Part shown: piece by piece, positions 12,347 to 55,930 of the stretch | Layout: every line of letters starts with the position of its first letter | How positions within the stretch are numbered: the first letter of the stretch is position 1 | Assembly (NCBI GenBank): GCA_963555705.1 | Contig: OY743187.1 | Coordinates: 16,196,133-16,260,132, forward strand | DNA: 64,000 nucleotides | From: Ligustrum vulgare | Taxonomy: Eukaryota; Streptophyta; Magnoliopsida; Lamiales; Oleaceae | Reading direction: 5' to 3' | Position numbers and translations under genes: made by a program | Notes under the pieces: model-generated | The model's input: only the letters and a program-made list of their open reading frames with translations | The model's database searches: none | Told to the model about the DNA's origin: nothing

Positions 12347-12506
12347 ATCCCCCACTTGTTCAAATATATGAACACAACTTAGAATCATAAACGATGCCAC
12401 CCATAAAATAAGGTATCTTTCGATTTTAACCTTATATTAGTGCTAATATTGCAAAGTAATATCGAGATCCCAGGTAGCCTTGGATTTGAACCAGTTATCC
12501 CTTATG

Positions 12507-18385: not shown

Positions 18386-18601
18386 ATAGCGGCGCTCAAC
18401 TTCGCTATCATCGATAGTGTCATTAACGTCCTCTGATGTAATGTCGTCATCTCAGTTGATAGTAGCCTGTGATGCCAGTGTGGTGGTGGTTGTGCTGGTG
18501 GTGGAATCGATTGTGATGGTGTCAATGTGCCAACTTTGGTGAACAGATTGGTGGTGTCGTAGCAACAGAAGTACCACCGCGCAGCGCTGGGTTCCTACCA
18601 C

Positions 18602-24746: not shown

Positions 24747-26726
24747 TCAGTACTTATTTCTTCCATCACCCTCGGTGATCACATCTTTAAAGGCTCCCCC
24801 ACTTGGGATCATAGGCAAAACATGTTCTTGATGCGGTACAATCACATCCAATAAATATGGCCCGGGTGTATCTAACATCTTCTGAATTGCAGACCTGAGA
24901 TCATCCTTCTTTGCCACGCGTGCTGCAGGTATATCACAAGCTTCTGCAAATTTCAACATATCTGGGAAAATCTCTGACTCTTTGGAAGGGTTTCCAAGAT
25001 AAGTATGAGCCCTGTTAGCCTTGTAGAAGCGGTCTTCCCACTGAACCACCATGCCTAAATGCTGATTATTTAACAACATAATTTTAACAGGAAGATTTTC
25101 CACCCTGACCGTAGCAAGCTCTTGCACATTCATGATGAAACTCCCATCGCCATCAATATCCACCACGACACAATCAGGTCGTGCAACAGCAGCTCCAATT
25201 GCTGCAGGAAGTCCAAAACCCATAGCCCCCAAACCACCCGATGTCAACCACTGCCTAGGCCTATTGTACTTGTAATATTGAGCAGACCACATTTGATGCT
25301 GCCCAACACCGGTACTAATAATTGCATTCCCACTAGTCAGCTCATCAAGAAGCTGAATTGCATACTGAGGAGGAATGGCATCTTCAAATGTCTTGTAACT
25401 CAAAGGATACTTTATTTTCTGATCCTTTAGCTCCTGTCTCCAGGCAGAAAAACTAAGCTTAACCTTTTCTTCTCTCCCTTTCTCCTCCAGTATCGAATTC
25501 AAGCCCTGCAAAGCCAATTTAAGATCTCCACAAATGGACACGTGAGGTTGCTTGTTCTTTCCAATCTCAGCAGAATCAATATCAATGTGCACAATCTTAG
25601 CTCGGCTAGCAAAAGCCTCTAACTTCCCAGTCACACGATCATCAAACCGAACACCAAAAGCAAGCAACAAATCACTCTTGTCCACCGCATAATTAGCATA
25701 AACAGTTCCATGCATTCCAAGCATTTGCAAGGAAAGCTCCTCATCCGAGCAAGGATAAGAACCAAGACCCATCAAAGTACTGGCAACAGGAATCCCTGTT
25801 AGATCGACAAACCGCCTCAACTCCTCACTTGAATTCAAACACCCACCACCTACGTAAAGGACTGGCTTTTTTGACTCAGATATTAACCTCACTATTTGCT
25901 CTAAAAGCATCTCACTCGGGGGCCGTGGCAACCTAGACACGTAACCAGCTAATTTCATTGGTTGGTCCCAATTAGGAACCACCATTTGCTGTTGTATATC
26001 CTTTGGAACGTCAATCAAAACTGGTCCAGGTCTCCCCGATTTAGCAATATAAAATGCTTCTTTCACAATTCTAGGAATGTCCTCCACGTCTAAAACAAGA
26101 TAATTATGCTTGGTAATGGAACGTGTCACCTCAACAATAGGCGTTTCCTGGAAGGCATCAGTGCCAATCATCCTCCGGGGAACCTGACCGGTGATGGCCA
26201 CGAGTGGGACACTATCAAGCATAGCATCGGCCAATCCAGAAACCAAATTCGTAGCTCCGGGACCGGACGTAGCAATACAGACCCCAGGGACGCCAGACGC
26301 CCGAGCATAGCCTTCAGCAGCAAAAACTCCACCCTGTTCGTGGCGGGGGAGGACGTTTCTGATAATTTTAGACCGCGTCAGTGCCTGGTGAATCTCCATG
26401 GACGCACCACCAGGGTACGCAAAAACGTCAGTCACGCCCTCCCGCTCAAGGGCCTCAACAAGGACATCGCATCCTTTTCGAGGTTCACCAGGAGCATATC
26501 GGGAAATGTAGGTCTCTTGGGAAGCTTCCTTTCGTACGGGTGAAGCAACATTGGTAATTTGCAGACGGCGTTTATGAGAGAGGCGGGGATTCATGCCATT
26601 TGGTACTTGGGAATGGAACTGGAGGGCAGATCTTGAAAGGAATTGTGACGATTTGGAGGAGGATGAGGAAGCAAAATGGTGTTTGGAAATAGGGGAGGAA
26701 GCGGACGACGGGACGGCGGCCGCCAT
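24747..26726 (-). CDS. ALS: Acetolactate synthase catalytic subunit, chloroplast (AHAS)
   Basis: The 659-residue intronless frame is full length for plant ALS. It catalyses the first shared step of branched-chain amino acid synthesis: 2-acetolactate from two pyruvates, or acetohydroxybutyrate from pyruvate and 2-oxobutyrate, using thiamine diphosphate, FAD and Mg. The Ser-rich residues 1-70 look like a plastid transit peptide. The ThDP glutamate is E130 (RHEQGG), and the ThDP/Mg motif runs from GDGS (526-529) to NN (553-554). Sites where plant ALS substitutions confer herbicide resistance all carry the sensitive residue: A108, P183, A191, D363, R364, W563, S642 and G643 (Arabidopsis 122, 197, 205, 376, 377, 574, 653, 654). 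No damage seen. Confidence 0.97.
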
Positions 26727-27490
26727 CTTTGACGGTGGAGAGAGAAAACGAAGGTTGTGTGTCGCTGGATTTTTGTTTAGGGTTGTGGAGTGGGGGAAAT
26801 CTTTGAGGACGACAAATCTTCAGACTTCAAGCATATCTAGAGAAAAGTTTTGTTGGAGGTTATCCAATTTATGGATTTATTTCATATTGGTCATTAAACT
26901 TTAATTTATTTTAATATGATAATCTAACTTATATTTATTTTTTCATCAAAAAAAAAAAGAAAAACTTATATTTATTTTTTAATTTTGCCAACTTATATAA
27001 TTTCATTTCATTTCAATTTTATCATCGGAAGTTCATAATTTGGTTGATGGAATTCATGATGATGCCAAGAAACTTTGGACTTGATAAGTTCAATCAAAGT
27101 TGAAGTCTTATTTGACAAGTTTTGTTCAAAATTATTTTTTCTCATGTTCATTTTCGATCACACATTTACACAATATTTGGAAATCATTTTTTGAGCAATG
27201 AAATTCATATAAAGGTGGTTAAATGCAAAAAAAAAATTGTATATTATTTTTGATTTTTATGTCTTTATCTCAGTAAAAAGATCAAATGCCAAATCATTTT
27301 ACTTTTCTCAAATTAGAAAATATGTTGTTGAAAAGTTATTTTAAGAAAATATTTGTAATTAAAAAGTGATTTTAAAAAAATTTGTTGTTTATAAATAATT
27401 GTCAAACACATGCTAATATATTTTACACATAAACCTAAAACATTTTCATATTTTTAGTCATACATTTTTTAAAAAATTAACTATTTCACT
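26727..27490. other. Upstream region of ALS
   Basis: The 5' UTR and promoter of the minus-strand ALS gene should lie here, but I see no decisive TATA box. From about 26930 it becomes AT-rich, with MITE-like pieces near 27290-27420. Confidence 0.5.
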
Positions 27491-31765: not shown

Positions 31766-31887
31766 ATGAGTGGTTCTGATAATGAGGCTACTAAGGTAGA
31801 TTAGTAGGAAGTTGCAACGAAGAGTCTGAGTAAACACTAAATATTAGTTTAGATGAGTCTATTCACCTTGAATCTAGGGATCACTGT
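31766..31887 (+). pseudogene. Antisense accessory gene 2, 5' piece
   Basis: It starts MSGSDNEATKVD and then meets two consecutive TAG codons (31802-31807). Further on, SIHLESRDHC is readable in another frame. The piece ends at the target site of the inserted element and continues at 41953. Confidence 0.5.
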
Positions 31888-34800
31888 TATAGCGACCCAG
31901 AATTTTTATGCAATAAATAATTATTTTAATATTTAGAAAATTGAGTCGCTATTGTTTTGAAATTAATGCCGCGACGGATTCGTCTAGCCAAGTCAAGAAA
32001 TATCGAATTTGTTCGATTTTAAATTAAAATCCGAATTTCTAAAATTATGTTATTATAATTATTTATTCAAAGTATTATTTTCAAAATCATTTTGAATTCC
32101 AAATTTATTAAAATATCTCAATTTTCCTTATTCAAATTATTTCAAGTCCAAATACGTAATTCAATTTTATCTCAAAATTTATTTATTCTCAAATTATTTT
32201 CAGTCCAAAGTATATCTGTTTTAAATACATTTCTTAATCAAAATTAGTCTAATTTTCAATGGATTACTTCCCACGTTTTTCATCTTTATTACATTATTAA
32301 GCACCTACTCTACTCATATTCCCCATGTCCCCATTAATCATTTTATTTTCTTTCTTTTTCCTTTTGAGCACGCTACTCACCATCATCATCACCAGTTCAC
32401 AGCCCAAATAACCTTCCATGTGCAAAACACCTTTACAGCTCCAATAGCACCACCAACGGACCGATGCAACCACTGTACTTATCCACCCCTTCATCAATAT
32501 ATCATTACCTCCTGCAGCACCTCAATCACAAAAACCAACTCATGGCCAATTTAACAACAAAGTTCACAATCTGCTTCAATCACCAATTTGCTGCCAAAAC
32601 CTCCCTCATTCCAGCAAGCATCCAAAACTCGACCAACGAACCAGCGCCGGCAACCAGCCACCAAATCAGTCATTGCCTTAACCATGTTCAACCAAGTAGC
32701 CACCTGCACCAAGCTCCATCTCCATCCCAGACGAGTGCAACCACAGTCCACCCACACTGCCTCACCGTCCATCACTCTGCCACCACCTACTGCAACTGAC
32801 CAGCCATCATTTTCAGGCCACCAATCAACCACGAAACCAACCAATTCAATAAGTCATCACTACCTGAAACAACTCAACCGCCTGCAGCACCCCCAAAATC
32901 ACGGCAAACCCACCTCCAAATCCTTAGCAAATCAAACCCATAAACCAAAAATAAGACCTAAACCCAATAATAGACGAACCCCGGCACTTACCTCAACCTT
33001 AAGCCCTTCGCTGCCAGATTTAATACCGGAGATTAATCGCGATTCAAGCCTAGTTTAGCCTCGGTTTTTATCCCCATCTCACACCAAACTCTTTCAAAAC
33101 CGGAACCCCTTCTTTGCCGCACCTTACGCCGGTGTCTCGCCGGCGTTTCTTCAGTAGAACCACTGCCCAGCTTTCGTCGGCCGGTTGAGAGAAACGGGTA
33201 GAGAGAGAGAGAGTATGGATTTTGAGAGAGAGAGAAGAGTAAAGTTTTAATATTATATTTTTTTAATTTTCAAAATTTGCAGATTGGTTCCCCAAGTTTT
33301 TAAAGGTTTTTCAAATCAGTCCTTAACTTTTAAAGTTATCCATTTCAGTCCCAAAGTTTTAAATGATTTTAATCAGCCCTTTCATTTTAAAAATCTGATC
33401 AATTCAGTCCTTACTGATTTACTTTATTTGATTTTAAATCCCAACTTTTCAAAATATCTATTTTAGTCCCTGAACTTTCAGAAGTATTCATTTTAATCCC
33501 TCAACTTTCAAAACATCAATTTTAGTCCTCAAATTATAATTTATCATTTTGAACTATATATTCGATAGACTAAAGTGACTTATTGGCTAAGACGAAGCGT
33601 ACGGAGAATTTAAAGAAATTGAAGTCATTCCCGCTCAACTTTGCACTCGTCGGATTTGAGGTAGACTCTCACTTATTAATTGATTTAAATTATGATTTCA
33701 TATAAATGTCATGTGACTTGTGAAGAGTTATTTTTATGAAAGGAAATGAAAATGTATTTTCATGGAAAGAACAATGCGTAGACTCGCACTTATTAATTGA
33801 TTTAAATTATGATTTCATATGAATGTCATGTGACTTGTGAAAGTCAATTTTTAAGAAAAGCAAGTATGTTTTTATGAAAGGTAAATATACCTTATGTTGT
33901 TATGAAAAGTAAGTATGTTTTTATGAAAAGAAAATATACTTTATGTTTTTACGAAAAGTAAGTATACCCTATGCTTCACGAAAATGTTTTTTTGGATCAT
34001 TGCTATGAAATCAATCTACCAAGATTGTTTTGGGTCCCATATGATAAGTTATGATATGTTAAGGGGACCGGAGTTTTAGTAGCGCTACACATAAGAATTC
34101 TTGCCACGAAGTTCGGTAACATTCTTGTGTCTCCTATGTTTATGAGGATTTGCCACGAAGTTCGGTAAAATTCCTGTGTTTCCATATGTTTATGAGGATT
34201 TACCACCTAAGTTCGGTAAAATTCCTGTCGCATATGTTTATGAGGATTTCGATCCTATCTTATGTTATGATGCAATTGATCCCTATGAATTTCAAAAATT
34301 ATGCTTGGTATACTTACTACATAAGAATTCTTGCCACCTAAGTTCGGTAAAATTCTAGGATTTCGATCTTATCCTATGTTATGATGAAAACTTACTGTTA
34401 TTATGATTTTACTGCATAAAGAATTCTTGCCACCTAAGTTCGGTAAAGTTCTTGTGTCTCTTTATGTTTATGAGGATTTTAAATCCTATCTTATGTTATG
34501 CTTTCAAAAGAAATTATGCTTGGCATAATTAAAATGTTTTTATAAGTATATGATTTTCAAAGAGCTGTTTTCAAAGAGCTATTTTCAAAGAGCCTATGAT
34601 TTTCACAATATGTCTCGTGCTGTAATGCACAATATGAATTTTATCAAGAGCAGTTTTATAAAGAAGCTCTATCAATGCCCGTTTTATAAAGAGCCGGGAT
34701 TTATGTGTTTAATCATCTTATAAATTAAATTAATTTGCGATGAGTCTACTGAGTATTTCCCCCATGAAATACTCACCCTACTTTTTAACAGTTTTGCAGA

Positions 34801-35140
34801 TTTCGGAGACGGTGGCGAGCGATGAATGATGGTGGCAATAATTGTTAAAAGGTTGAAAGTTTGACGTTAATGATTTCCGTATTTTTTTCCAAACAATCGA
34901 ATAATTTAGAGAAGTTCATTTATTTGAGAAATTATGACATTGTCAATTTCTTTACAAAATTAATGGTTAGATTTACTATTTCAAATGGTTTCATAAATGT
35001 TTTCAATTTTATCGGCCATTACAGTTTATTTAATGTTGCCAAAAATGAATTTCAACTATTTCTTCCGCAAAAATATTATTCGAAAAATTTAGACAGAAAA
35101 TGACGTAGTGAATCGGGTATACGGAACTCGGGGCGCTACA
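31888..35140 (+). repeat. 5' LTR, 3,253 bp
   Basis: It begins TATAGCGACCC and ends GGGGCGCTACA. The inverted ends would match TGTAGCG, but both LTRs start TA, giving a TA..CA terminus. It holds AT-rich sequence, a C-rich stretch (32450-33060), 'CAGTCCTTAACTTT'-type repeats (33290-33530), and about five copies of CACCTAAGTTCGGTAAAATT (34100-34450). Confidence 0.95.
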
Positions 35141-35143
35141 AGT

Positions 35144-35155
35144 TGGTATCAGAGC
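35144..35155 (+). promoter_or_regulatory. Primer-binding site, initiator Met tRNA
   Basis: TGGTATCAGAGC is the standard complement of the 3' end of plant tRNA-iMet. It lies 3 bp after the 5' LTR. Confidence 0.95.
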
Positions 35156-36083
35156 TAGTCTGCGTTTCTGTAGACTGGAAAAATTTTCAAAAAGAATTTT
35201 AAGAAATATTTTCCATTATAAGATTTTTATTGATGAAGATTGCCACTGCCATCATTCGTTCCACCAACTCCGAGGTAAAGAAGTTTATGATATTTAAAGT
35301 TATTTCAGTATTTCGAATACTCATTTTATTGATTTATGAGAAAGAATGAAGAGTATTTCGGATACTTATGATTTATGAGAAATAAGAATGTATTTCTTCG
35401 AAAATAATGATGTTGTTATGCTTTGTCATAACTTATATGCTTTAATGTATGATTATGAGAAAATTTTTAAGAAAGAAAACGAGTGTTGAGCATAATGGGA
35501 ATAATATGATTTAAGAATGATTTTTAAATAATTTTTGTCCTCGAGTTAGAAATGATGAACCCTAGATGGACTTTGCATAATTGATTTTAGACATGGCATA
35601 TATTTATAAGTATGAGTAATCTTTTGAGCCAATTAAGGTATGGAAGGAAATGATATTGTGATATTGAAAAAAAATATGATTTGAAATTGTTATGTTGAGG
35701 AATTATGAATGGAATTATGAGATATTTTTGATGATATTGAAGTGTTGGAATCGTTTTCAATATTTTAGATCGTTGTGATCAAATGTGGAGTTATTTGTTA
35801 TTGTGAGTTATGAAGTATGCTTATGTTTTGGGATAAGTCCAAATTACAAGGGAGACTCTGTTCAGAATTTTATCAATTGAAATTAAGAGCATGATATGAT
35901 AAGCATCTACTAAAGAATTAAGGTTAGACATGCAAGTTCATTTACATCACAAACGAGATTTAGTAGATGATAACAGAAATTTTATTATTTTCTCATAAGG
36001 AGAACACACAAGAGTCACACTGGAAAGGAAATTCATGAAACACACAAAAGCAAACGAGAGAAGCATGGGATAATCCTCAAAAT
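35156..36083. other. Leader region of the non-autonomous element
   Basis: AT-rich and non-coding. The start resembles the untranslated leader of Gypsy elements, but no gag frame follows. Confidence 0.6.
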
Positions 36084-36315
36084 GAGAGATGTGTTTCCGG
36101 AGTAGCCGTATCCTACCACCTCTGATCTTTTGAGGAAAATAAAGAAACCTTCAAAGAGGTGTGTTTCGAGAGTAAGAATACTCCATAATCTACCACCTTG
36201 GATCTTTGAAGTACACACAAGATTTAAACATTAAGGAAATCCTAGTAAATGGAGGGGTGTCTCGAGAGTGAGAATACTCCGTACTCTACCCCCACCTATT
36301 CTAAGATTCAAAGAG
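36084..36315. repeat. Three imperfect repeats with hairpin potential beyond the LOG stop
   Basis: Copies near 36084, 36156 and 36250 share GGTGTGTTTCGAGAGT, then ACTCC, then CTACCACC. Each can pair AGGTG with CACCT, and GAGT with ACTC. They lie just 3' of the LOG gene on its own strand, where a 3' UTR would be. Confidence 0.65.
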
Positions 36316-36961
36316 TTAAATTTACATTAACCGGACTCCATTTTCGCTTGATTCCCCTTCCTTGCGACCAATCTATTTTAACTCCTGCTGGATCTTGTAT
36401 TGAGATATATGACTGCAGCTTATCCAGTAGTTCATCAATAGTAGGAGCAGAAATAAGAAGCCTTCTGGAAAATGGAGAGATGAATCCCTGTTCCACAGCA
36501 TAATCAAGAAAGGTTAACAAACCATCAAAGAAATTGTTAACATTCAGAAGCCCAATAGGCTTAGTATGGAGATCTAGTTGAGCCCACGAGGTAATGTTAA
36601 AGATTTCTTCTAAGGTACCAAAACCTCCGGGCAGGGCTATAAAGGCATCAGAACCATATAGCATACAAGTTATGCGTTCATGGATGGATAAGGTTTGAAC
36701 TTCATGCCCTCGTGTTTTGCCTGCAACATCCACCAAAGGGACATGTATGACACCGATTACTTTTGATTTCTCTGCAAGAGCAGATTGGGAAACACAACCC
36801 ATTAGACCACTGCTACCACCCCCATATACAAGAGTGATACCTTTTTCTCCCAGTTTCTTTCCAAGATCTACAGCCGCTTCTAGATAACCGAAGCCTTTCC
36901 CTACTTTTGATCCACAAAATACACAAATAGTTTTGATCTGTCGAAGTTTTGGTGCTTCCAT
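36308..36961 (-). CDS. LOG-like: LOG-type cytokinin riboside 5'-monophosphate phosphoribohydrolase, element-borne
   Basis: A 217-residue intact frame from ATG 36961, full length for plant LOG proteins. These release active cytokinin bases from their riboside monophosphates in one step, in the cytosol. Visible motifs are VFCGS (14-18), YGGGSSGLMG (46-55) and PGGFGTLEE (111-119) with its catalytic glutamate. In the substrate loop the arginine R96 is kept, but the next two residues are IT where plant LOGs have KA (HERIT rather than HxRKA). Plant LOG genes normally have several introns and this one has none, suggesting capture through RNA. It lies antisense to the element, with its own TATA-like box at 37036-37044. 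Activity is untested. Confidence 0.88.
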   Translation of the reverse strand: MEAPKLRQIKTICVFCGSKVGKGFGYLEAAVDLGKKLGEKGITLVYGGGSSGLMGCVSQSALAEKSKVIGVIHVPLVDVAGKTRGHEVQTLSIHERITCMLYGSDAFIALPGGFGTLEEIFNITSWAQLDLHTKPIGLLNVNNFFDGLLTFLDYAVEQGFISPFSRRLLISAPTIDELLDKLQSYISIQDPAGVKIDWSQGRGIKRKWSPVNVNLTL

Positions 36962-37035
36962 CTTTGATAGTAAAGAAGGGAAAACTTACGAAGAAGATGT
37001 GATTTTGGGATGCCTGAACTATGAAATATGTTTGG

Positions 37036-37044
37036 CTATTTAAA
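37036..37044 (-). promoter_or_regulatory. TATA-like TTTAAATAG before the LOG gene
   Basis: On the minus strand GCTTTAAATAGCC lies about 75 bp upstream of the LOG ATG. CATAGTTCAGGC follows and resembles TAGTTCATGC downstream of the matching box before the neighbouring gene. Confidence 0.5.
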
Positions 37045-37261
37045 GCCGGAAAAATTTACTGTTTTTGATTGATTCTGAAAAAGTAAAGATTTACTTTTGA
37101 CAAAATCAGCCCACTTTTGAAAATTTTATCGTATCGAGGCTGTCACCTTTCGGCGATTAAATATTTTATTTCCAGCTTTATCAAACCTCGAGAAAGGAAA
37201 AATATTTTTTTATTTCCAAAACGCGTTAAAGAAAGCAGCAAAATATTTTAAAAGATTTACC

Positions 37262-37813
37262 TTATATCATTGCTGAACTGCCAGAAGCCTCATTTTGTAA
37301 AACAGACTGGCAAACAGGATCTTTCGATATTATATTTTGGAGACTATAACGATTTTTGTCCTCGTTAAACTGAGCGTATAAGGAGAGAAGTTCACGTTGT
37401 ACATAACCACTTGGGTGCGTCTCAAGAGTCAGTCGAATATCATCCAAAGACTCCTTACTCAGTCCACCCTTTATGAATTCGATTTTATCATCCCGATTAG
37501 TAGAAGAATATCCTACTGATTTGCAACGTGTATTACAGTTCCAACGAGCACATTTGTAGCAACCACCCAGTCTTTTTGCTCTTCGTTTCTTTGCAAACGT
37601 GATTTTGCCTAAACCAGGCATGTGCTTTGGAAATGTTGATGGTAATTCACCAGATAGTCGAACCTTTGCTTCTATCAACCAGCGAACATCTTCTGGAATA
37701 TCATGAGCCATTAGCAACCTAAATCTTTCGAGCCTTATTCTATAGATCTTTCTCAGATCATTCATAGGAAGACTGGAATAATACTTGCGAATGTTAGAAA
37801 GGATGATATCCAT
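37262..37813 (-). CDS. Basic Cys-rich protein resembling plant-virus nucleic-acid-binding proteins
   Basis: 183 residues from ATG 37813; a TTG 15 bp upstream is in frame but not a likely start. A charged, mostly helical N-terminal half leads to a basic run (KKRRAKR, 75-81) directly before C85-X2-C88-X4-C93-X3-C97. Later residues are charged. A basic run followed by a small Cys cluster is the layout of the nucleic-acid-binding and silencing-suppressor proteins of Betaflexiviridae (carlavirus and vitivirus type), and the spacing here is close to those. The protein is longer than most of them. The match is by pattern memory only. A plant zinc-finger origin is possible. It reads in the same direction as LOG, 300 bp upstream of it. 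Confidence 0.55.
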   Translation of the reverse strand: MDIILSNIRKYYSSLPMNDLRKIYRIRLERFRLLMAHDIPEDVRWLIEAKVRLSGELPSTFPKHMPGLGKITFAKKRRAKRLGGCYKCARWNCNTRCKSVGYSSTNRDDKIEFIKGGLSKESLDDIRLTLETHPSGYVQRELLSLYAQFNEDKNRYSLQNIISKDPVCQSVLQNEASGSSAMI

Positions 37814-37845
37814 TGTTTGATGATTCAACCTCTTCCCAGCATGAA

Positions 37846-37855
37846 CTATTTAAAA
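37846..37855 (-). promoter_or_regulatory. TATA-like TTTTAAATAG before the Cys-rich gene
   Basis: It lies about 33 bp upstream of ATG 37813 on the minus strand. This would leave a very short leader if it acts as a TATA box. Confidence 0.45.
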
Positions 37856-38557
37856 GCGCAAGGATATGAATGAATCCGCGTGATTTGTGTTACAGTAAGA
37901 AAGGATGGAATAAAATAATGGATAAGAGGAGACAAGAATTAATGCGCCGTTCACTTTCTTGATAAAAGAAAGATTTGATGATGGGATTTGAGATTTGGAA
38001 TATTTTCTTGGATTATGGGTACTGATATTTTGTTATAATAATGATAATCATGGTATAGTGTGATGATACGTGGAAAGTGAATTGAGGACCGTATCGAATT
38101 AGAGTTAATACGTATATACAAGTGAAAGAAATACTTTGCAGGAAATGTGATGACATTTAAGTAAAGAATTTTAGTTATTTGGAAGATATTTGTTTACTGA
38201 ATTTTGGGTTACAAATATTGGAAAGATAAGTTAATGATATTATGTTGATATGTTATTGGGTATATTACGTAGAGAGAATATTCAGGTAATTCTTTGATTA
38301 TTTTGGGAATATTCGATGATAAGAAGAAAGGAAAAATTATTATGATATGATATGTCAGTAAAGATTTGTTGAAATTTTAGAGATATATACAAATATTTGA
38401 GGTCACATGATACGATGATAAGTGACAGGTTACATGAGTAATACAAGATATGATGAAATATCACATACGATTGGGAATTTTCATTTTGATTCAGAAGAAT
38501 TTATGAGTAGACACATATGTCTATAGAAAAGTCCATGTTCTTAAGAAACAAAGTGAT
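37856..38557. other. Interior spacer of the non-autonomous element
   Basis: AT-rich, no coding sequence seen on either strand. Confidence 0.6.
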
Positions 38558-38685
38558 GCATTTAGTCAAAGTCCAGTGGGTTAAATATGGTAGCGATGAT
38601 GCAACATAAGAGAAAGAAGAGATTCTGATTAAGTATTCAGAAATCATAAGATTAAGTAAGTTTAATTTCGAGGACGAAATTATTT
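38558..38685 (+). pseudogene. pol: C-terminal remnant of a chromovirus-type Gypsy pol
   Basis: VQWVKYGSDDAT then a stop, then EKEEILIKYSEII and SKFNFEDEIILRG are recognisable as the end of a chromodomain-bearing Gypsy polyprotein. The fragment sits directly before the polypurine tract, as the natural pol end would. It indicates that the element derives from a Tekay/Reina-like Gypsy whose coding region was lost. Confidence 0.7.
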
Positions 38686-38699
38686 TAAGGGGGTAAGAT
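38686..38699 (+). promoter_or_regulatory. Polypurine tract
   Basis: AAGGGGGTAAGAT directly abuts the 3' LTR. Confidence 0.85.
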
Positions 38700-41600
38700 T
38701 ATAGCGACCCAGAATTTTTATGCAATAAATAATTATTTTAATATTTAGAAAATTGAGTCGCTATTGTTTTGAAATTAATGCCGCGACGGATTCGTCTAGC
38801 CAAGTCAAGAAATATCGAATTTGTTCGATTTTAAATTAAAATCCGAATTTCTAAAATTATGTTATTATAATTATTTATTCAAAGTATTGTTTTCAAAATC
38901 ATTTTGAATTCCAAATTTATTAAAATATCTCAATTTTCCTTATTCAAATTATTTCAAGTCCAAATACGTAATTCAATTTTATCTCAAAATTTATTTATTC
39001 TCAAATTATTTTCAGTCCAAAGTATATCTGTTTTAAATACATTTCTTAATCAAAATTAGTCTAATTTTCAATGGATTACTTCCCACGTTTTTCATCTTTA
39101 TTACATTATTAAGCACCTACTCTACTCATATTCCCCATGTCCCCATTAATCATTTTATTTTCTTTCTTTTTCCTTTTGAGCACGCTACTCACCATCATCA
39201 TCACCAGTTCACAGCCCAAATAACCTTCCATGTGCAAAACACCTTTACAGCTCCAATAGCACCACCAACGGACCGATGCAACCACTGTACTTATCCACCC
39301 CTTCATCAATATATCATCACCTCCTGCAGCACCTCAATCACAAAAACCAACTCATGGCCAATTTAACAACAAAGTTCACAATCTGCTTCAATCACCAATT
39401 TGCTGCCAAAACCTCCCTCATTCCAGCAAGCATCCAAAACTCGACCAACGAACCAGCGCCGGCAACCAGCCACCAAATCAGTCATTGCCTCAACCATGTT
39501 CAACCAAGTAGCCACCTGCACCAAGCTCCATCTCCATCCCAGACGAGTGCAACCACAGTCCACCCACACTGCCTCACCGTCCATCACTCTGCCACCACCT
39601 ACTGCAACTGACCAGCCATCATTTTCAGGCCACCAATCAACCACGAAACCAACCAATTCAATAAGTCATCACTACCTGAAACAACTCAACCGCCTGCAGC
39701 ACCCCCAAAATCACGGCAAACCCACCTCCAAATCCTTAGCAAATCAAACCCATAAACCAAAAATAAGACCTAAACCCAATAATAGACGAACCCCGGCACT
39801 TACCTCAACCTTAAGCCCTTCGCTGCCAGATTTAATACCGGAGATTAATCGCGATTCAAGCCTAGTTTAGCCTCGGTTTTTATCCCCATCTCACACCAAA
39901 CTCTTTCAAAACCGGAACCCCTTCTTTGCCGCACCTTACGCCGGTGTCTCGCCGGCGTTTCTTCAGTAGAACCACTGCCCAGCTTTCGTCGGCCGGTTGA
40001 GAGAAACGGGTAGAGAGAGAGAGAGTATGGATTTTGAGAGAGAGAGAAGAGTAAAGTTTTAATATTATATTTTTTTAATTTTCAAAATTTGCAGATTGGT
40101 TCCCCAAGTTTTTAAAGGTTTTTCAAATCAGTCCTTAACTTTTAAAGTTATCCATTTCAGTCCCAAAGTTTTAAATGATTTTAATCAGCCCTTTCATTTT
40201 AAAAATCTGATCAATTCAGTCCTTACTGATTTACTTTATTTGATTTTAAATCCCAACTTTTCAAAATATCTATTTTAGTCCCTGAACTTTCAGAAGTATT
40301 CATTTTAATCCCTCAACTTTCAAAACATCAATTTTAGTCCTCAAATTATAATTTATCATTTTGAACTATATATTCGATAGACTAAAGTGACTTATTGGCT
40401 AAGACGAAGCGTACGGAGAATTTAAAGAAATTGAAGTCATTCCCGCTCAACTTTGCACTCGTCGGATTTGAGGTAGACTCTCACTTATTAATTGATTTAA
40501 ATTATGATTTCATATAAATGTCATGTGACTTGTGAAGAGTTATTTTTATGAAAGGAAATGAAAATGTATTTTCATGGAAAGAACAATGCGTAGACTCGCA
40601 CTTATTAATTGATTTAAATTATGATTTCATATGAATGTCATGTGACTTGTGAAAGTCAATTTTTAAGAAAAGCAAGTATGTTTTTATGAAAGGTAAATAT
40701 ACCTTATGTTGTTATGAAAAGTAAGTATGTTTTTATGAAAAGAAAATATACTTTATGTTTTTACGAAAAGTAAGTATACCCTATGCTTCACGAAAATGTT
40801 TTTTTGGATCATTGCTATGAAATCAATCTACCAAGATTGTTTTGGGTCCCATATGATAAGTTATGATATGTTAAGGGGACCGGAGTTTTAGTAGCGCTAC
40901 ACATAAGAATTCTTGCCACGAAGTTCGGTAACATTCTTGTGTCTCCTATGTTTATGAGGATTTTCCACGAAGTTCGGTAAAATTCCTGTGTTTCCATATG
41001 TTTATGAGGATTTACCACCTAAGTTCGGTAAAATTCCTGTCGCATATGTTTATGAGGATTTCGATCCTATCTTATGTTATGATGCAATTGATCCCTATGA
41101 ATTTCAAAAATTATTCTTGGTATACTTACTACATAAGAATTCTTGCCACCTAAGTTCGGTAAAATTCTAGGATTTCGATCTTATCCTATGTTATGATGAA
41201 AACTTACTGTTATTATGATTTTACTGCATAAAGAATTCTTGCCACCTAAGTTCGGTAAAGTTCTTGTGTCTCTTTATGTTTATGAGGATTTTAAATCCTA
41301 TCTTATGTTATGCTTTCAAAAGAAATTATGCTTGGCATAATTAAAATGTTTTTATAAGTATATGGTTTTCAAAGAGCTGTTTTCAAAGAGCTATTTTCAA
41401 AGAGCCTATGATTTTCACAATATGTCTCGTGCTGTAATGCACAATATGAATTTTATCAAGAGCAGTTTTATAAAGAAGCTCTATCAATGCCCGTTTTATA
41501 AAGAGCCGGGATTTATGTGTTTAATCATCTTATAAATTAAATTAATTTGCGATGAGTCTACTGAGTATTTCCCCCATGAAATACTCACCCTACTTTTTAA

Positions 41601-41952
41601 CAGTTTTGCAGATTTCGGAGACGGTGGCGAGCGATGAATGATGGTGGCAATAATCGTTAAAAGGTTGAAAGTTTGACGTTAATGATTTCCGTATTTTTTT
41701 CCAAACAATCGAATAATTTAGAGAAGTTCATTTATTTGAGAAATTATGACATTGTCAATTTCTTTACAAAATTAATGGTTAGATTTACTATTTCAAATGG
41801 TTTCATAAATGTTTTCAATTTTATCGGCCATTACAGTTTATTTAATGTTGCCAAAAATGAATTTCAACTATTTCTTCCGCAAAAATATTATTCGAAAAAC
41901 TTAGACAGAAAATGACGTAGTGAATCGGGTATACGGAACTCGGGGCGCTACA
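38700..41952 (+). repeat. 3' LTR, 3,253 bp
   Basis: Same length and start (TATAGCG) and end (GCTACA) as the LTR at 31888-35140. About 8 substitutions and no length change seen by eye. Confidence 0.95.
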
Positions 41953-44253
41953 ACTGTACCCTTTCACTTGGTGTTCAACCCTTTAGGTCTATCCATCACA
42001 CTCAATTACCTTGTGATCCATCTACATCTTCACCTAGAGATCGAAACTATACTGAGACACGAATATTACCTTTGAGATCTATCCCGTTTTGGCACATCAG
42101 TAATTATCTGTCTCGTATTAGTGAAGATGATCTGATGGAGTGGCATATATGTATAGGATTCCTCATTTCGTTTTATTTTTTGTTCCTTTTAAAGACGAAT
42201 GGGTTGACCAATCTCCCAAAGGTTGTGAGGCTGCAACTAAGCTCATGTAGAGGTCAACCTGGGTTTTCCTCATCCCCGATTTCACTGGGTATTCAACCCT
42301 TTAGGTCTATCCATCACACTCAATTACCTTGTGATCCATCTAATCTTCACCTAGAGATCGAAACTATACTGAGACGCGAATATTACCTTTGAGATCTATC
42401 CCGTTTTGGAACATCAGTAATCACCTGTCTCGTATTAGTGAAGATGATCTGACGGAGTGGCATATATGTATAGGATTCCTCATTTCGTTTTATTTTTTGT
42501 TCCTTCTAAAGACGAATGGGTTGACCAATCTCCCGAAGGTTCTGAGGTTGCAACTAAGCTCATGTAGAGGTCAACCTGGGTTTTCCTCATCCCCGATTTC
42601 ACTGGGTGTTCAACCCTTTAGGTCTATCCATCACACTCAATTACATTGTGACCCATCTACATCTTCACCTAGAGATCGAAACTATAATGAGACACGAATA
42701 TTACCTTTGAGATCTATCCCGTTTTGGCACATCAGTAATCATCTGTCTCGTATTAGTGAAGATGATTTGACGGAGTGGCATATATGTATAGGATTCCTCA
42801 TTTCGTTTTATTTTTTGTTCCTTCTAAAGACGAATGGGTTGACCAATCTCCCGAAGGTTCTGAGGTTGCAACTAAGCTCATGTAGAGGTCAACCTGAGTT
42901 TTCCTCATCCCCGATTTCACTGGGTGTTCAACCCTTTAGGTCTATCCATCACACTCAATTACCTTGTGATCCATATACATCTTCACCTAGAGATCGAAAC
43001 TATAATGAGACACGAATATTACCTTTGAGATCTATCCCGTTTTGGCACATCAGTAATCATCTGTCTCGTATTAGTGAAGATGATTTGACGGAGTGGCATA
43101 TATGTATAGGATTCCTCATTTTGTTTTATTTTTTGTTCCTTCTAAAGACGAATGGGTTGACCAATCTCCCGAAGGTTGTGAGGCTGCAACTAAGCTCATG
43201 TAGAGGTCAACCTGAGTTTTCCTCATCCCCGATTTCACTGGGTGTTCAACCCTTTAGGTCTATCCATCACACTCAATTACCTTGTGATCCATCTACATCT
43301 TCACCTAGAGATCGAAACTATACTGAGACACGAATACCTTTGAGATCTATCCCGTTTTGGCACATCAGTAATCACCTGTCTCGTATTAGTAAAGATGATC
43401 TGACGGAGTGGCATATATGTATAGGATTCCTCATTTCGTTTTACTTTTTGTTCCTTCTAAAGACGAATGGGTTGACCAATCTCCCGAAGGTTGTGAGTTT
43501 GCAACTAAGCTCATGTAGAGGTCAACCTGGGTTTTCCTCATCCCCAATTCATAACTGATTTATAAGGCACTAGAGATTAGCCCTTTCTCAGATCAATCTG
43601 AATGGATGGAGGAAGATAATAGGCTTCATAATTATTCGAAATAAGTTAGGATACAGATTTCCCAATGTGAACGACTTTGACTTAATATTTCACTTTCTGA
43701 CTAATGGAAAGGACTCTGGCTAGTATTACGCCATGGCTAGACCACGACCTTGGGGTGATTTGATCTTTGGCCTGTCGAATTCCACGGAGATTGGAAAGAT
43801 CATTGGTTCTACATTGGAGGTCATTGGCAGTGCATAGAAAATCATGACGAACTGGATTCTGTTGTCCATACATGTTTCAGAGCTTACAGTACGTTTTAGT
43901 TACTTTCGATCTGCTTTTCTAATATTGATTGTGTCTTATTTTGCAAACCTACCATTGTTGAACAATCTGTCGAACTTGAGCTAAAGTTGGAGAGAGCTCA
44001 TCACATCGACGAATTTCAGAGATCGTACAAAGAGTTAATTACAAAAGATAATATGTACCAAGTTGGTCTAATTGTAGCTCACCCTACATTTTTCATTCCA
44101 CAGCCTCCAGGCTGTAAGTAGATTTATAGTGATTTCGCTCTTCTTAAAATCAGAACTGGCATAATTTTTTGTTTGCGGGCCAATAGAAGAGGCAAAGGCT
44201 AACTAACTCTAGGAAAAAACTCTCCACAGGTCAAGGACCTCCACCTCCAAAAT
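41953..44253 (+). pseudogene. Antisense accessory gene 2, middle piece with five-fold tandem amplification
   Basis: This continues the gene split at 31887. 41970-43556 is a five-unit tandem array (described separately) of one coding stretch. A meaningful piece in one frame is PHFVLFFVPSKDEWVDQSPE, typical of the Transposase_28-type family. From 43557 there are remnants of the middle of the gene, with many stops, ending in STGQGPPPPK. The Copia element at 44254 interrupts it. Confidence 0.5.
41970..43556 (+). repeat. Five-copy ~318-bp tandem repeat
   Basis: Units start near 41970, 42289, 42605, 42922 and 43241 with GGTGTTCAACCCTTTAGG and differ by only a few percent. The period is a multiple of three, so one frame stays open across several units (42389-43558). 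Confidence 0.95.
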
Positions 44254-44761
44254 TGTGGAAAATAAAGCCATTTGTTGAATTTGGTGAGCCAACTTTGTTG
44301 AATTTGGTAAGCCACCAATAGCCCACAAATTTAGCCTACAATCTAGTCTATGTTCACACCTATTTTATTCCTTCCATTCTTGATTTTTTGTCCAAACTTT
44401 CCCTATAAATAGAGGGCAAAACCTCAATGGAAAATGCACTAAGTAGAGAGGAAAATAGAGAGTGGAAGTAGTAGAGAGAAACATTTGTGAGTAGAGAGAA
44501 AATTAGAGAGAAATAAATTGTTTTCTCCTAAGTAATTTCTTACTTTGTTTTCTCCTATTACAAGATAGGTTAAATATTGTTATCTCCTTGTATTTAGAGA
44601 GAAGGTTATTGTAATTCTCCTACTATAGTGAAATCCTCCTATACTTGCCCGTGGACGTAGCCATTATTGGTGAACCACGTAAATACTTGTGTTCCATTTT
44701 AACCGCATTTTCTCAATTCCACTATACTTGTTGACCAACGCGATCCATGCCTTTCCTAACA
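44254..44761 (+). repeat. 5' LTR of the Tork-like Copia
   Basis: TGTGGAAAAT...TTTCCTAACA, 508 bp, with CCCTATAAATAGAGGG (TATA) near 44402-44416. Confidence 0.95.
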
Positions 44762-44763
44762 AG

Positions 44764-44775
44764 TGGTATCAGAGC
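44764..44775 (+). promoter_or_regulatory. iMet primer-binding site
   Basis: TGGTATCAGAGC, 2 bp after the 5' LTR. Confidence 0.95.
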
Positions 44776-44919
44776 CTGGTTACATCTTTTGAAATTCTTA
44801 GTATGCTCTGTGGTTGCAGCTTTGTCTGATCTTCCACATCAGAAAAGATTTCTTGAGATTGTTTTGCGTAGGGTTGGTGTTCACTATCACTCGGTATTAT
44901 TACCAAGTCGTGAACAAAA

Positions 44920-47900
44920 ATGGCAGCAAAGTATGAGGTTGAAAAGTTCAATGGGAACAATTTCTCGTTATGGAAAATGAGAATAAAAGCAGTTTTGAGA
45001 AAAGATAACTGTTTGGCGGAAATTGGAGAGAGACCCGCGGATATCACTGACGATGACAAGTGGAATGAGATGGATAGAAATGCAATTGCTAATCTACACT
45101 TAGCACTTGCTGATGGAGTATTGTCAAGTGTGGCGGAAAAGAAAACAGCAAATGAGATATGGGACACCCTAACGAAGCTCTACGAGGCCAAATCATTACA
45201 CAACAAAATTTTCCTAAAGAGACGGCTTTACACCCTTCGGATGATGGAGTCAACTACAGTGACAGACCACATCAACACCCTCAACACTCTATTTTCACAG
45301 CTCACATCAATGGGCCATAAAATAGAGGCAGGGGAACGTGCTGAAATTCTACTTCAAAGTCTACCAGATTCGTATGATCAACTCATCATCAACTTAACTA
45401 ACAACATAGAAGATCTAGTCTTTGATGATATTGCAGCTGCGGTTCTTGAAGAGGAAAGTCGGCGCAAGAACAAGGAGGACAGACTATCTAGTTCACAGCA
45501 GGCGGAAGCCTTGACGATGATGAGAGGGAGATCAACGGAACGTGGCCCCAGTGGGAGTCATACCTAAGGTAGATCTAAATCCAGAAGTAAGAAGAATGCC
45601 AAGTGTCATTACTGTGGCAAGAAAGGGCACTTAAAAAGGGATTGTTGGAGTCTTAAGAGGAATGAAGAAGCCAAAGGGAAGGCACATGAGATACCAAAAG
45701 CTCAGGGTTGTGTAGCAAGCACCTCATATGATGGCGAAGTTTTATACAGCGAGGCAACGACTGTTGTTGAAGGCAGAAAGCATTTCAACGATGTCTGGCT
45801 CATCGATTCAGGAGCGACATGGCACATGACACCAAGGAGAGAATGGTTCCATCAATATGAACACATCTCAGGAGGTTCAGTGTTTATGGGAAATGATCAT
45901 GCGTTGGAGATCGTTGGTATTGGTACTATCAAATTTAAAATGTATGATGGTACAATTTGCACTATCAAGGAGGTTCGGCACGTAAAGGGCTTGAAGAAAA
46001 ATCTATTGTCTTTGGGACAACTAGATAGTATTGGGTGCAAAACCCATGTTCAAGATGGGACTATGAAAATAGTCAAAGGCGCGCTTGTGGTGATGAAAGC
46101 AGAAAAGATAGCTGCAAACCTGTACATGCTTAAAGGAGATACTCTACAAGAAGGAAAAGCATCTGTTGCATCGGCAGGTTCAGTAGAAGAATTAACAATG
46201 ATGTGGCACCGAAAACTTAGCCACATGTCTGAACGTGGTTTGAAAATTCTCTCTGAACAAGATCTTCTTCCAGGGCTCAAAAAGGTATCATTACCCTTTT
46301 GTGAGCATTGTGTCACTAGTAAGCAGCACAGATTGAAGTTTAGCACTTCTACTACTAGAAGTAAAGCTATCTTGGAATTGGTTCATTCTGATGTTTGGCA
46401 AGCACCGGTTATGTCCCTAGGAGGTGCAAAATATTTTGTATCTTTTATTGATGATTACTCCAGGAGATGTTGGGTGTATCCAATCAAGAAGAAGGCTGAT
46501 GTGTTCGAAGTCTTCAAAATCTACAAAGCGCGGGTAAAACTTGAATCTGAGAAGAAGATCAAGTGTTTGAGGACGGACAATGGAGGAGAATATACTGGTA
46601 ATGAATTTAATATTTTTTGTCAACAAGAAGGTATTAAAAGACATTTCACGACGGCATATACTCCACAACAAAATGGAGTGGCAGAGCGGATGAACAGAAC
46701 ATTGTTAGAAAGAACGAGAGCAATGTTGAGAACTGCAGGGTTAGCTAAATCATTTTGGGCTGAAGCAGTCAAAACCGCCTGTTATGTGATCAACCGGTCA
46801 CCATCAACCGCGATTGATCTGAAGACGCCGATGGAGATGTGGACAGGGAAGCCAGCCGATTATTCTCACTTACATGTCTTTGGAAGTCCTGTGTACGTTA
46901 TGTACAATGCCCAGGAAACATCAAAGTTGGATTCAAAATCCAGAAAATGCATTTTCTTGGGGTATGCTGATGGAATCAAGGGGTACCGCCTGTGGGATCC
47001 CACTGCCCACAAGGTGATAATCAGCAGAGACGTGATATTCACGGAAGGCAAGGTACAAGAAAATGATAGCACTTTAGAAAAACCAGAAACTACTACGGTT
47101 GAAGTTGAAGTTGAAAATAGAGAAGAACAAGAAGTCTGGGATTCTTCTGAAGCAGTACCGGAGCATGAAGAAGGAGAACAAGCTGAGTTTACAGTTCCTG
47201 AAATCAGACGATCAACTCGGGAGAGGAGAGAACCAGCTTGGCACTCTGAGTACATTATGGAGAGCAATGTTGCATACTGTCTACTGACGGAGGATGGAGA
47301 GCCATCAACTTTCCATGAGGCTTTAAATAGTCAAGAAGTTTCGCAGTGGATGGAAGCTATGCAGGAAGAAATTGAGGCTCTTCATAAAAACAAGACATGG
47401 GATCTTGTTTCGCTACCACAAGGAAGGAAAGCCATTGGAAATAAATGGGTCTACAAGATCAAATGTGATGGAAATAACCAAGTGGAGCGGTATCGTGCTA
47501 GACTGGTGGTAAAGGGATATGCTCAGAAAGAAGGCATTGACTTCAACGAAATATTCTCTCTTGTTGTTCGACTCACGACAGTTCGAGTATTATTGGCGAT
47601 GTGTGCTACATTAGACTTGCACCTGGAGCAGTTAGATGTGAAAACTGCATTTCTTCATGGTGAGCTTGAAGAAGAAATTTATATGCTCCAACCATAAGGT
47701 TTTGAAGAAAAAGGAAAAGAGAACTTGGTTTGCAGGTTGAACAAATCTCTATACGGTCTCAAACAGGCGCCGAGGTGTTGGTATAAGAGATTTGATTCCT
47801 TCATCATGAGCCTTGGATACAACAGACTTAGTTCAGATCCTTGTGCTTATTGCAAGAGATTTGGTGATGGTAATTTCATTATCTTGCTGTTGTATGTTGA

Positions 47901-48858
47901 CGACATGTTGGTAGCAGGCCCCAACAAAGATTGTCTCAAAGATTTGAAGGCACAGTTGGCTAGGGAGTTTGAAATGAAGGACTTGGGAGCCGCAAACAAG
48001 ATTCTAGGGATGCAAATTCACCGAGACAGAAATAATAGGAAGATTTGGCTTAGTCAGAAGAACTACTTGAAGAAAATCTTGCGACGCTTCAATATGCAAG
48101 ATTGTAAGCCAATTTCTACCCCTCTTCCTATTAATTTCAAGTTATCCTCAAGTATGAGTCCTAGCAGTGAAGCGGAGAGGATGGAGATGTCTCGAGTACC
48201 GTATGCATCAGCAGTGGGTAGCCTAATGTTTGCTATGATTTGTACAAGACCAGACATTGCACAAGCAGTGGGAGCGGTCAGCCGATATATGGCAAATCCT
48301 GGTAGAGAGCATTGGAATATGGTGAAGAGGATCCTAAGATATGTCAAGGGTACCTCAAATGTTGCATTATGCTATGGAGGATCAGAATTTAATGTTAGAG
48401 GCTATGTAGATTCAGATTATGCAGGTGATCCTGATAAAAGCAAGTCCACCACTGGATATGTGTTTACTCTTGCTGGAGGAGCTGTAAGCTGGGGTTCAAA
48501 ACTGCAGTCTATCGTGGCTACTTCTACGACGGAAGCAGAATATGTGGCGGCTACACAAGCTAGCAAAGAGGCAATATGGTTGCAAATATTAATGGAAGAA
48601 CTCGGACACAAACAAGAGAAGATTTCTCTATTTTGTGATAGTCAGAGTGCTTTGCACTTAGCAAAGAATCCAGCATTTCATTCAAGGACGAAACATATTA
48701 GAGTACAATATCACTTTGTACGAGAGAAGGTGGAAGAAGGAAGTGTGGATATCCAGAAGATCCATACGGAGGACAACCTAGCGGATATGTTCACAAAGCC
48801 GATCAACACTGATAAGTTCACATGGAGCCGATCCTCTATCGGCCTAACAGAAGCATAA
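44920..48858 (+). pseudogene. gag-pol: Copia gag-pol polyprotein with two premature stops
   Basis: From ATG 44920 one frame of about 1,313 codons runs to 48858, broken only by TAA at 45565-45567 and TAA at 47695-47697. It shows, in order: UBN2-type gag (MAAKYEVEKFNGNNFSLWKM), CCHC knuckle (CHYCGKKGHLKRDC, after the first stop), protease (LIDSGATWHM), integrase (HRKLSH ... CEHC; HSDVW, TDNGGEY, GVAERMNRT), RT (YGLKQAPR, LLLYVDDMLVAG) and RNase H (GYVDSDYAGD, TTEAEYVAA). The second stop replaces the glutamate usual in the LQPEGF motif. No frameshifts were found. It cannot move by itself but could be a donor if the stops are bypassed. Confidence 0.93.
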
Positions 48859-48926
48859 GCAGCATGAGAATGGCAAGTGTGGGAAGGATGGCAGGTTGTA
48901 ACAAAAGTGACTTTAAGTGGGAGAAA

Positions 48927-49434
48927 TGTGGAAAATAAAGCCATTTGTTGAATTTGGTGAGCCAACTTTGTTGAATTTGGTAAGCCACCAATAGCCCACA
49001 AATTTAGCCTACAATCTAGTCTATGTTCACACCTATTTTATTCCTTCCATTCTTGATTTTTTGTCCAAACTTTCCCTATAAATAGAGGGCAAAACCTCAA
49101 TGGAAAATGCACTAAGTAGAGAGGAAAATAGAGAGTGGAAGTAGTAGAGAGAAACATTTGTGAGTAGAGAGAAAATTAGAGAGAAATAAATTGTTTTCTC
49201 CTAAGTAATTTCTTACTTTGTTTTCTCCTATTACAAGAGAGGTTAAATATTGTTATCTCCTTGTATTTAGAGAGAAGGTTATTGTAATTCTCCTACTATA
49301 GTGAAATCCTCCTATACTTGCCCGTGGACGTAGCCATTATTGGTGAACCACGTAAATACTTGTATTCCATTTTAACCGCATTTTCTCAATTCCACTATAC
49401 TTGTTGACCAACGCGATCCATGCCTTTCCTAACA
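48927..49434 (+). repeat. 3' LTR of the Tork-like Copia
   Basis: 508 bp, nearly identical to 44254-44761. The two differences seen are GATAGG/GAGAGG and TTGTGTTCC/TTGTATTCC. Confidence 0.95.
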
Positions 49435-49439
49435 AAAAT

Positions 49440-51548: not shown

Positions 51549-52416
51549 ACAATATGATTAGCAATGTAATTGAATCAATACATAAACAATATAATTAGGC
51601 AAGTAATGATAACTCCCTTTTTCAGCGAATTAGCGGACTGCACAGGGTGAAATCAAGGGCTCAAATTTCAGCCCAATCCCCTACAATGGTAACACCACTA
51701 CCCGCCTAGAGAACACTCCAAGACAATCCCCAAACCGGCCAAGAGACCCACTGCCAACACACACCTCCCACACAAGGTAAACCGAGCTGCACAGAGGAAG
51801 AACCACCACAAGGAACCGACAGCACAGAGGAGGAACCACCACAAGGAACCGCACAAGGTAACCACAATAAGGCTCGGCCACCACAAGGCTCGAACACCGC
51901 CTCCCCTAAACCAAGAACAAGGCTGCCTAACAAAGGAAACAAGAAGGCACAACCAGAAAGAACACGGAACACTGTTGACAGCAAGGGCCGAACACAAGAG
52001 AACCGAATCAAGAGGCGCACAGAGAGCACACGGTGGTGGTCACCACGATGGAGGGAGTCGGTTTCTCACAAAGAGAAAAGGGAAGGTGTCGTTTCTTCAC
52101 AGAGAAGAGGGGGAGGGAGTGTCGTGAGAGTGAGCGTTCTAACGAGCCTAAGAGGGGGGTGTGGGTAGATATAGGTTTAGGGTTTAATTAGGGAGCCCTA
52201 ATTAAATGGGTCGTCTTGAAGCCTACCCATCGAGCAATAGGGTCGAGACCCAATTAAAACCTCGACGTGGGTAGTAAATCTCTTAGCGCGTGGGCTACCT
52301 AATTGTGGAGATTGGGCAATACTTCGATCATGGGCCGAGGGCCTATGAAGCTTAAAATCCGACACTGTTTATTATCATTACCCCCGAGGTTTGATTGTGA
52401 CCAAAAAATCCCAAAA
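51549..52416 (-). repeat. 3' LTR of the gag-only element
   Basis: 868 bp. On the minus strand it begins TTTTGGG where the other LTR has TGTTGGG, after a polypurine tract AAGGTGGAGGTT. Rich in ACCACCACAAGG-type short repeats (51780-51900). Confidence 0.85.
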
Positions 52417-52430
52417 AACCTCCACCTTGG

Positions 52431-55925: not shown

Positions 55926-55930
55926 AAGAC

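Follow-up and report, generated by a model that had tools for sequence, protein, structure and literature searches.

The question raised by a long terminal repeat (LTR) retrotransposon in the genome of Ligustrum vulgare is whether two genes that lie in it against its own direction are passengers or are kept for what they do. The element lies in a stretch of 64,000 nucleotides (contig OY743187.1 of assembly GCA_963555705.1, positions 16,196,133 to 16,260,132); this whole stretch is called the window below, and the features are listed by window position in Table 1. One gene encodes a LONELY GUY (LOG)-type protein, of the family of cytokinin-activating enzymes; the other encodes a protein resembling the nucleic-acid-binding proteins (NABP), or cysteine-rich proteins (CRP), of plant viruses. 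On balance, the element is considered to be a high-copy non-autonomous LTR retrotransposon with an antisense two-gene module that is kept by selection and would act on the host.

The two LTRs had been described as differing at about 8 positions; the count is exactly 8 (99.75% identity), including 6 transitions, with a Kimura two-parameter (K2P) distance of 0.0025. At substitution rates of 1.3e-8 to 7e-9 this divergence points to a young insertion of about 0.1-0.2 million years (Myr). The claimed ACTGT duplication is present on both flanks, the claimed primer binding site (PBS), TGGTATCAGAGC, is present and is presumably of the tRNA-iMet type, and the claimed polypurine tract ends six bases before the start of the 3' LTR as fixed by the target-site duplication. 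The element begins with TA rather than TG. Its PBS and polypurine tract are taken to recall Tekay/Del-type elements, no reverse transcriptase having been found in the element itself. The long frames of the 3.56-kb interior are two in number, run on the minus strand against the element direction and are intact, as had been stated; a "scrap of pol" reported beside them was not recovered, as neither tblastn (with open frames taken from the rest of the window and from four other stretches) nor a comparison of 10 of the element's open frames with Pfam, each with a limited query set, returned gag or pol similarity. Each LTR also holds an 86-bp unit twice, 117 bp apart (window 33661-33863 and 40473-40675).

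A preliminary description of the window, made from its letters, had proposed a search of the host genome for further copies, a check of whether both frames persist in most of them and an estimate of dN/dS. The host assembly comprises 1.385 Gb in 51 contigs, with matches on contigs C1-C23 and C36. A 39-base tag per gene, searched with up to 3 mismatches, gave 5,886 genome matches for LOG and 3,706 for NABP, and a tag for the LTR/PBS junction gave 2,455, counts that are not directly comparable because the tag sites vary to different degrees; the reversed-pattern control gave 0 for each. By junction and LOG tag counts the family is dispersed and multicopy, so the window element is not the only copy. 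The LOG reading frame is full length and stop-free in 150/150 scored matches (the best 150 of 9,446 candidates). Protein queries found 68 loci, the window copy among them, and both genes were matched in 66; L018 and L025 have NABP without a LOG match. Intact frames number 61 of these 66 for LOG and 61 of the 68 for NABP. Loci ranked by protein likeness favour intact genes, and therefore a second sample was chosen by the non-coding spacer between the genes (query 36975-37250; 1,219 candidates, 40 scored, and 13 of 39 non-self copies analysed). Both genes are present in 13/13 of these copies, with defects in three: LOG has a frame break in L079 and an indel close to its start in L075, and NABP has an indel in L077. 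Under either choice, both genes persist in most of the copies examined.

On contig C1, where 97 exact LTR/PBS junctions were listed, a LOG or NABP match stands at the expected place and side in 66 (LOG in 53, NABP in 57, both in 44). Below 57.36 Mb, the reach of the exact LOG list, the figure is 40/59 junctions, with 3/59 in a wrong-direction control; these counts of cargo-bearing junctions are a lower bound, because the tags listed were for the most part exact ones. That the pair is borne by all elements sharing this LTR end was considered and dropped in view of two loci, L086 and L087, which are weighed below. Head-to-tail arrays of cargo elements are frequent, with a spacing of about 6.2-7.1 kb (roughly one LTR plus one interior) and up to five elements in a row among the matches listed, as if LTRs were shared (for example C23:10311325-10338630 and C22:1306460-1326780).

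Selection was estimated from the 13 spacer-picked copies and the window, excluding codons with more than one difference; the neutral expectation is about 1 synonymous to 2.4 nonsynonymous changes. LOG shows 19 synonymous and 5 nonsynonymous changes (the latter all singletons) and 1 stop, with an omega of 0.11 (P 1e-6); NABP shows 17 of each, with an omega of 0.40 (P 0.007). Non-singleton changes number 12 synonymous to 0 nonsynonymous in LOG and 10 to 3 in NABP, and third codon positions are the most variable in both genes. LOG and NABP are under purifying selection, LOG being the more constrained of the two, and decay at the neutral rate is not seen. Within the main family of the protein-ranked set, pooled pN/pS is 0.15 for LOG and 0.28 for NABP (990 pairs each); these estimates are biased, being skewed to low dN, and the spacer-picked set is therefore the one relied on. 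Per-base difference in the latter is 0.006 for the spacer, 0.010 for LOG and 0.016 for NABP, the spacer differing least because the copies were chosen by likeness to it. Distances of LOG and NABP are correlated across 37 copies (r 0.63, p 0.001).

The NABP-like protein had been said to have the layout of plant-virus nucleic-acid-binding proteins, and the two viral families tested (PF05515 and PF01623) agree: the window protein passes both cut-offs, although modestly, with 26.1 bits for Viral_NABP (cut-off 23) and 22.5 bits for Carla_C4 (cut-off 20.9). Its CxxCxxxxCxxxC motif, CYKCARWNCNTRC, directly follows a basic stretch and recurs in 105 of 120 listed relatives. At E <= 0.01, Viral_NABP is matched by 85/90 relatives and Carla_C4 by 82/90, with best E-values of 5.7e-9 and 1.5e-8, respectively; 0/5 reversed-sequence controls match either family. 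A Pfam scan of the two antisense genes returned LOG and viral NABP families only, and no TRP28. No relative of NABP was found in the PDB, or among IMG/VR viral contigs in scans with one sequence and one alignment; two structure models have mean predicted local distance difference test (pLDDT) values of 61 and 70.

The other gene had been claimed as a full LOG-type enzyme, and it is indeed an intact LOG-type gene with a Lysine_decarbox domain and the PGGxGTxxE motif. This motif is present in 57/57 main-family copies, 107/120 nearest relatives and 108/120 host LOGs, the host set being the best 120 of one LOG3-type search (74-98% identical to Arabidopsis LOG3, a conifer included). The Arg and Glu of the motif region are invariant in a 24-row alignment (A2) of relatives 50-93% identical to the window LOG, and the window LOG matches two Arabidopsis LOGs in the PDB. 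The C-terminus departs from that of host enzymes. EAR motifs, which bind co-repressors, read LxLxL or DLNxxP; within the last 14 residues LxLxL occurs in 93/120 nearest LOG relatives, which are not 93 independent events because many rows are near-copies, versus 0/120 LOG3-type host proteins, and shuffled LOG tails give it in 3.4%. The usual forms are KRKLDLTLRL or KRKLNLTLSL, and a main-family variant, KRKWSPVNVNLTL, is found in 52/55 copies of at least 210 aa.

A TATA-like TTTAAATAG upstream of each gene provides a candidate antisense promoter. None of the other nine-base windows (152 in all) in a region with a mean diversity of 0.174 is as conserved as the NABP-side copy; conservation of the LOG-side copy discriminates little, because the whole region is conserved.

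The pair is also found in a second setting in the same genome. Loci L009-L017 encode a diverged LOG and NABP pair in sense orientation, with 51-58% identity to the main type for LOG (one broken copy gives a 48% piece) and 61-65% for NABP; an upstream TATA-like match is seen in 1/9 for each gene. In L071/L072 the pair lies downstream of a same-strand integrase frame, in the place of env-like genes, and in seven other loci it lies downstream of another conserved frame, for which no Pfam family scored above cut-off. This conserved frame (L070:1277-2068, minus strand) is matched in 7/10 of loci L009-L018; the sequence between integrase and pair reads AAGCGCTTAATGGGAGACAACCCAT in L014. The second carrier (L069-L072) is presumed, from this motif after pol, to be Athila-like. 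A 552-bp direct repeat (L069/L070) was considered for its LTRs and dropped, because its ends are unlike LTR ends; LTRs of this carrier were not found. Between-type medians are dS 1.55 and dN 0.36 for LOG and dS 2.06 and dN 0.34 for NABP, with dS near saturation, which gives a median dN/dS of ~0.23 and ~0.16 (uncorrected pN/pS 0.42 and 0.39). The second-type LOG tail reads LDLELRL or LDLELKL in 6/7 full-length copies.

Relatives of both proteins occur in rosids and asterids; they are known from protein sequence. NABP relatives at E <= 1 number 237 proteins, and the 120 listed include Orobanche, Striga, Populus, Xanthoceras and Acer, and the 120 listed LOG relatives include dozens from Reevesia (Malvaceae), five each from Populus and Xanthoceras and one from Diospyros. 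Four Orobanche gene models (P0015, P0018, P0021 and P0115) place a NABP and a LOG domain in a single hypothetical protein, probably through fusion of the two element genes; they are better evidence of linkage than NABP and LOG matches on records of equal size (8,723 and 4,511 bp), which are only suggestive. In an unrooted 42-row tree, with the non-LOG3 host subfamilies represented by one LOG8 piece, 30 element-type LOGs split from 12 host LOGs at 100/100 on a branch of 0.89, one Xanthoceras row lying nearest the host side. The preliminary description had spoken of a recent element and of a transposable unit that spreads an intact hormone gene with a partner. The insertion is young, and the spread of LOG and NABP, their retention as a pair and their selection stand; recent capture by one element does not, given the LOG split, the relatives and the second carrier. 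Such proteins are annotated as host genes in several genomes and could inflate LOG family counts.

In the reading favoured here, an autonomous relative among the Gypsy elements would copy the element in trans, while the antisense promoters would drive the synthesis of both proteins, whose target would be the host cell. Viral cysteine-rich members suppress silencing, and p12 of chrysanthemum virus B in addition activates transcription in the nucleus and is linked with hyperplasia, according to PMC7588395 and PMC12172455. The NABP-like protein may work like the cysteine-rich proteins of carlaviruses and allexiviruses, through nuclear nucleic-acid binding, and may weaken RNA silencing and turn on host proliferation genes. 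LOG would release active cytokinin, and the basic and EAR-type tail of most relatives would place its action in or near the nucleus; hormone activation by LOG and silencing suppression by NABP are both inferred. Together, the two would favour dividing, meristem-like cells with element expression and heritable new insertions. Benefits in trans would account for the persistence of apparently cargo-less relatives. If this is right, retrotransposons act jointly on growth hormone and silencing. A wider reading is put forward tentatively, as possible but doubtful: that the pair is a portable host-reprogramming module common to at least two retrotransposon lineages, selected at element level across eudicots and acting in trans toward proliferation and weak silencing. 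In this module a viral-type protein, proposed as transcription factor and silencing suppressor, would be joined to a cytokinin enzyme whose tail would bind a nuclear co-repressor, the two being likened to viral accessory proteins.

Several observations weigh against a selected module acting on the host. Pair retention was scored mostly in young copies. L086 and L087 share the junction and the 3' tail (from window 37915) and neither gene was seen in them; no frame of at least 80 aa lies in the 1.4 kb read of each, which starts 1.1 kb inside the element. They are two of 31 C1 junctions without a listed gene match, and since such apparently cargo-less sisters exist, the LOG and NABP pair is probably not required in cis. 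Among NABP singletons, 7 synonymous to 14 nonsynonymous changes are near neutral, as expected of single dead copies. The 26 and 22 bits of the window NABP are modest when taken alone, because an unrelated family scored up to 20 bits with reversed sequences, and the low-confidence NABP model gave no viral-structure match at E <= 0.001. LOG proteins of the second type have PGDFGTLEQ at the motif (L014 has PGDFGALEQ), and pN/pS within that type is 1.08 for LOG (7 sequences) and 0.40 for NABP (6); with an altered motif and no visible constraint, LOG may be decaying in the Athila-like type. The tail of the window LOG reads VNLTL rather than LxLxL; the relatives whose tails were counted are non-independent, with many from Reevesia and Populus, and were deemed element-borne by likeness, from protein sequence alone. 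By a simple pattern, the lysine of 118/120 host LOGs is absent in 57/57 main-family copies and in 71/120 nearest LOG relatives. Because of this absent lysine, the weakest point of the mechanism is whether LOG is still an enzyme.

The lost lysine also bears on a different explanation, in which the pair serves replication of the element, NABP as a chaperone or transcription regulator and LOG as an oligomeric scaffold with the SLOG fold, its enzyme role being secondary. The motif region is kept in the window's family while the host-conserved lysine is lost, and regulatory roles have been proposed for the Retand and Grande antisense proteins; PGGxGTxxE is nevertheless kept as often as in host LOGs and LOG is more constrained than NABP. 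This explanation is regarded as rather unlikely. Another holds that double-stranded RNA for copy-number control is the function of the antisense genes and their coding incidental. PMC7264820 suggests this for antisense open reading frames (ORFs), and the conserved antisense TATA-like boxes would fit; the codon-position pattern and substitution counts indicate selection on protein, and the idea is considered improbable.

Two further explanations were weighed. Some copies may have become host genes, the others being by-products, in keeping with annotations of Populus, Diospyros and Reevesia that count such proteins as genes; constraint across many dispersed copies, young LTRs and thousands of tags point instead to element-level selection, which leaves host use a slight prospect. 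It is also conceivable, if highly improbable, that the pair has no function and looks intact by descent alone, its copies stemming from recent bursts of a single master or a few. The low age of the window copy and the amplification of apparently cargo-less relatives would fit such bursts, but youth alone does not yield the LOG substitution counts, nor does it account for the between-type dN/dS of both genes. Selection on a module that would act on the host is the reading retained.

Among known elements, large retrotransposon derivatives (LARDs) are without coding sequence, and gene capture by LTR elements usually leaves fragments. The window element resembles LARDs in its long LTRs, PBS and polypurine tract and in that no gag-pol was found, and the sister form that is apparently cargo-less would belong among them; unlike LARDs, it holds two selected genes in its interior. 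Grande gene23, RIRE2, Retand TRP28 and PvRetro13 likewise have conserved antisense genes, but in the available descriptions these ORFs belong to gag-pol elements, in which they follow pol and precede the 3' LTR, whereas no gag-pol was found here, and they have no clear relatives beyond TRP28 or an SMC domain, whereas both proteins here are recognisable. According to PMC7264820, plant LTR elements have antisense genes that are mostly of unknown origin, without clear similarity to other proteins described, and maize Grande gene23 is an antisense gene with its own promoter; an unknown virus is floated as a source of such genes in PMC11963269. Since relatives can be recognised for both proteins here, one being of viral type, their functions are directly testable.

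A LOG-family domain (YgdH) inside Gypsy LTR elements is already in print, in consensuses of Citrus and, under a looser filter, Populus trichocarpa (PMC9289625, which cites Steinbauerova et al. 2011). The available portion of that paper mentions neither a partner of viral type nor an antisense pair, and no own promoters, EAR-type tail or test for selection; its screen began from reverse transcriptase and so would miss elements that lack one. No title or abstract on a LOG and viral-NABP pair in retrotransposons was found among the matches listed from open-licence literature, and cytokinin, LONELY GUY and YgdH are absent from the main text of a 2026 gene-capture review (PMC13317346). Carlavirus p12 and proteins of allexiviruses, mandariviruses and vitiviruses share with the window NABP a Cys motif behind a basic stretch and both Pfam families; the window protein differs in having a conserved C-terminal half beyond the viral match and in being retrotransposon-borne. 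Plant LONELY GUY enzymes share the Pfam family, PGGxGTxxE and the Arg and Glu of the motif region with the window LOG, which differs in the branch that separates it from host LOGs, its uninterrupted frame and the absent lysine, and most of its relatives in the basic and LxLxL tail.

Table 1. Coordinates of the element, its genes and candidate signals in the window, and of two sister loci on contig C1.
Feature	Position	Strand	Remarks
Target-site duplication ACTGT, 5' copy	31883..31887	.	
5' LTR	31888..35140	+	3,253 bp, TATAGCG...CGCTACA
Primer binding site TGGTATCAGAGC	35144..35155	+	read from sequence
LOG-type gene	36308..36961	-	217 aa, single uninterrupted frame; Pfam Lysine_decarbox 4.8e-33
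C-terminal VNVNLTL of LOG	36311..36331	-	variant of LxLxL (EAR-type) tail
Inter-gene spacer	36962..37261	-	includes presumed LOG promoter
TATA-like TTTAAATAG, LOG side	37036..37044	-	83 nt upstream of LOG ATG; exact in 56/57 main-family rows
NABP/CRP-like gene	37262..37813	-	183 aa from ATG; frame open to TTG at 37828
CxxCxxxxCxxxC motif (CYKCARWNCNTRC)	37523..37561	-	directly after basic stretch KKRRAKR
TATA-like TTTAAATAG, NABP side	37846..37854	-	41 nt upstream of NABP ATG; exact in 57/58 rows
3' internal tail	37915..38698	+	common to apparently cargo-less sister form
Polypurine tract AAGGGGG	38687..38693	+	read from sequence
3' LTR	38700..41952	+	3,253 bp
Target-site duplication ACTGT, 3' copy	41953..41957	.	
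Apparently cargo-less sister L086	C1:9556600-9558000		
Apparently cargo-less sister L087	C1:52268800-52270200		

The remainder of the window holds further repeats and at least one long frame of another kind. Five tandem repeats of 315-318 bp lie right behind the 3' target-site duplication (41962-43549), with a 389-aa frame running through them. A Copia element with 513-bp LTRs that are 99.4% alike and long gag-pol frames occupies 44250-49435, and LTR pairs 98.1% and 95.4% alike, with copia-type gag/pol pieces inside, are found at 11610-18387 and 51549-55927, respectively. At 24750-26819, on the minus strand, lies an open 690-aa frame of a thiamine-pyrophosphate enzyme, probably the host acetolactate synthase, the name being inferred.

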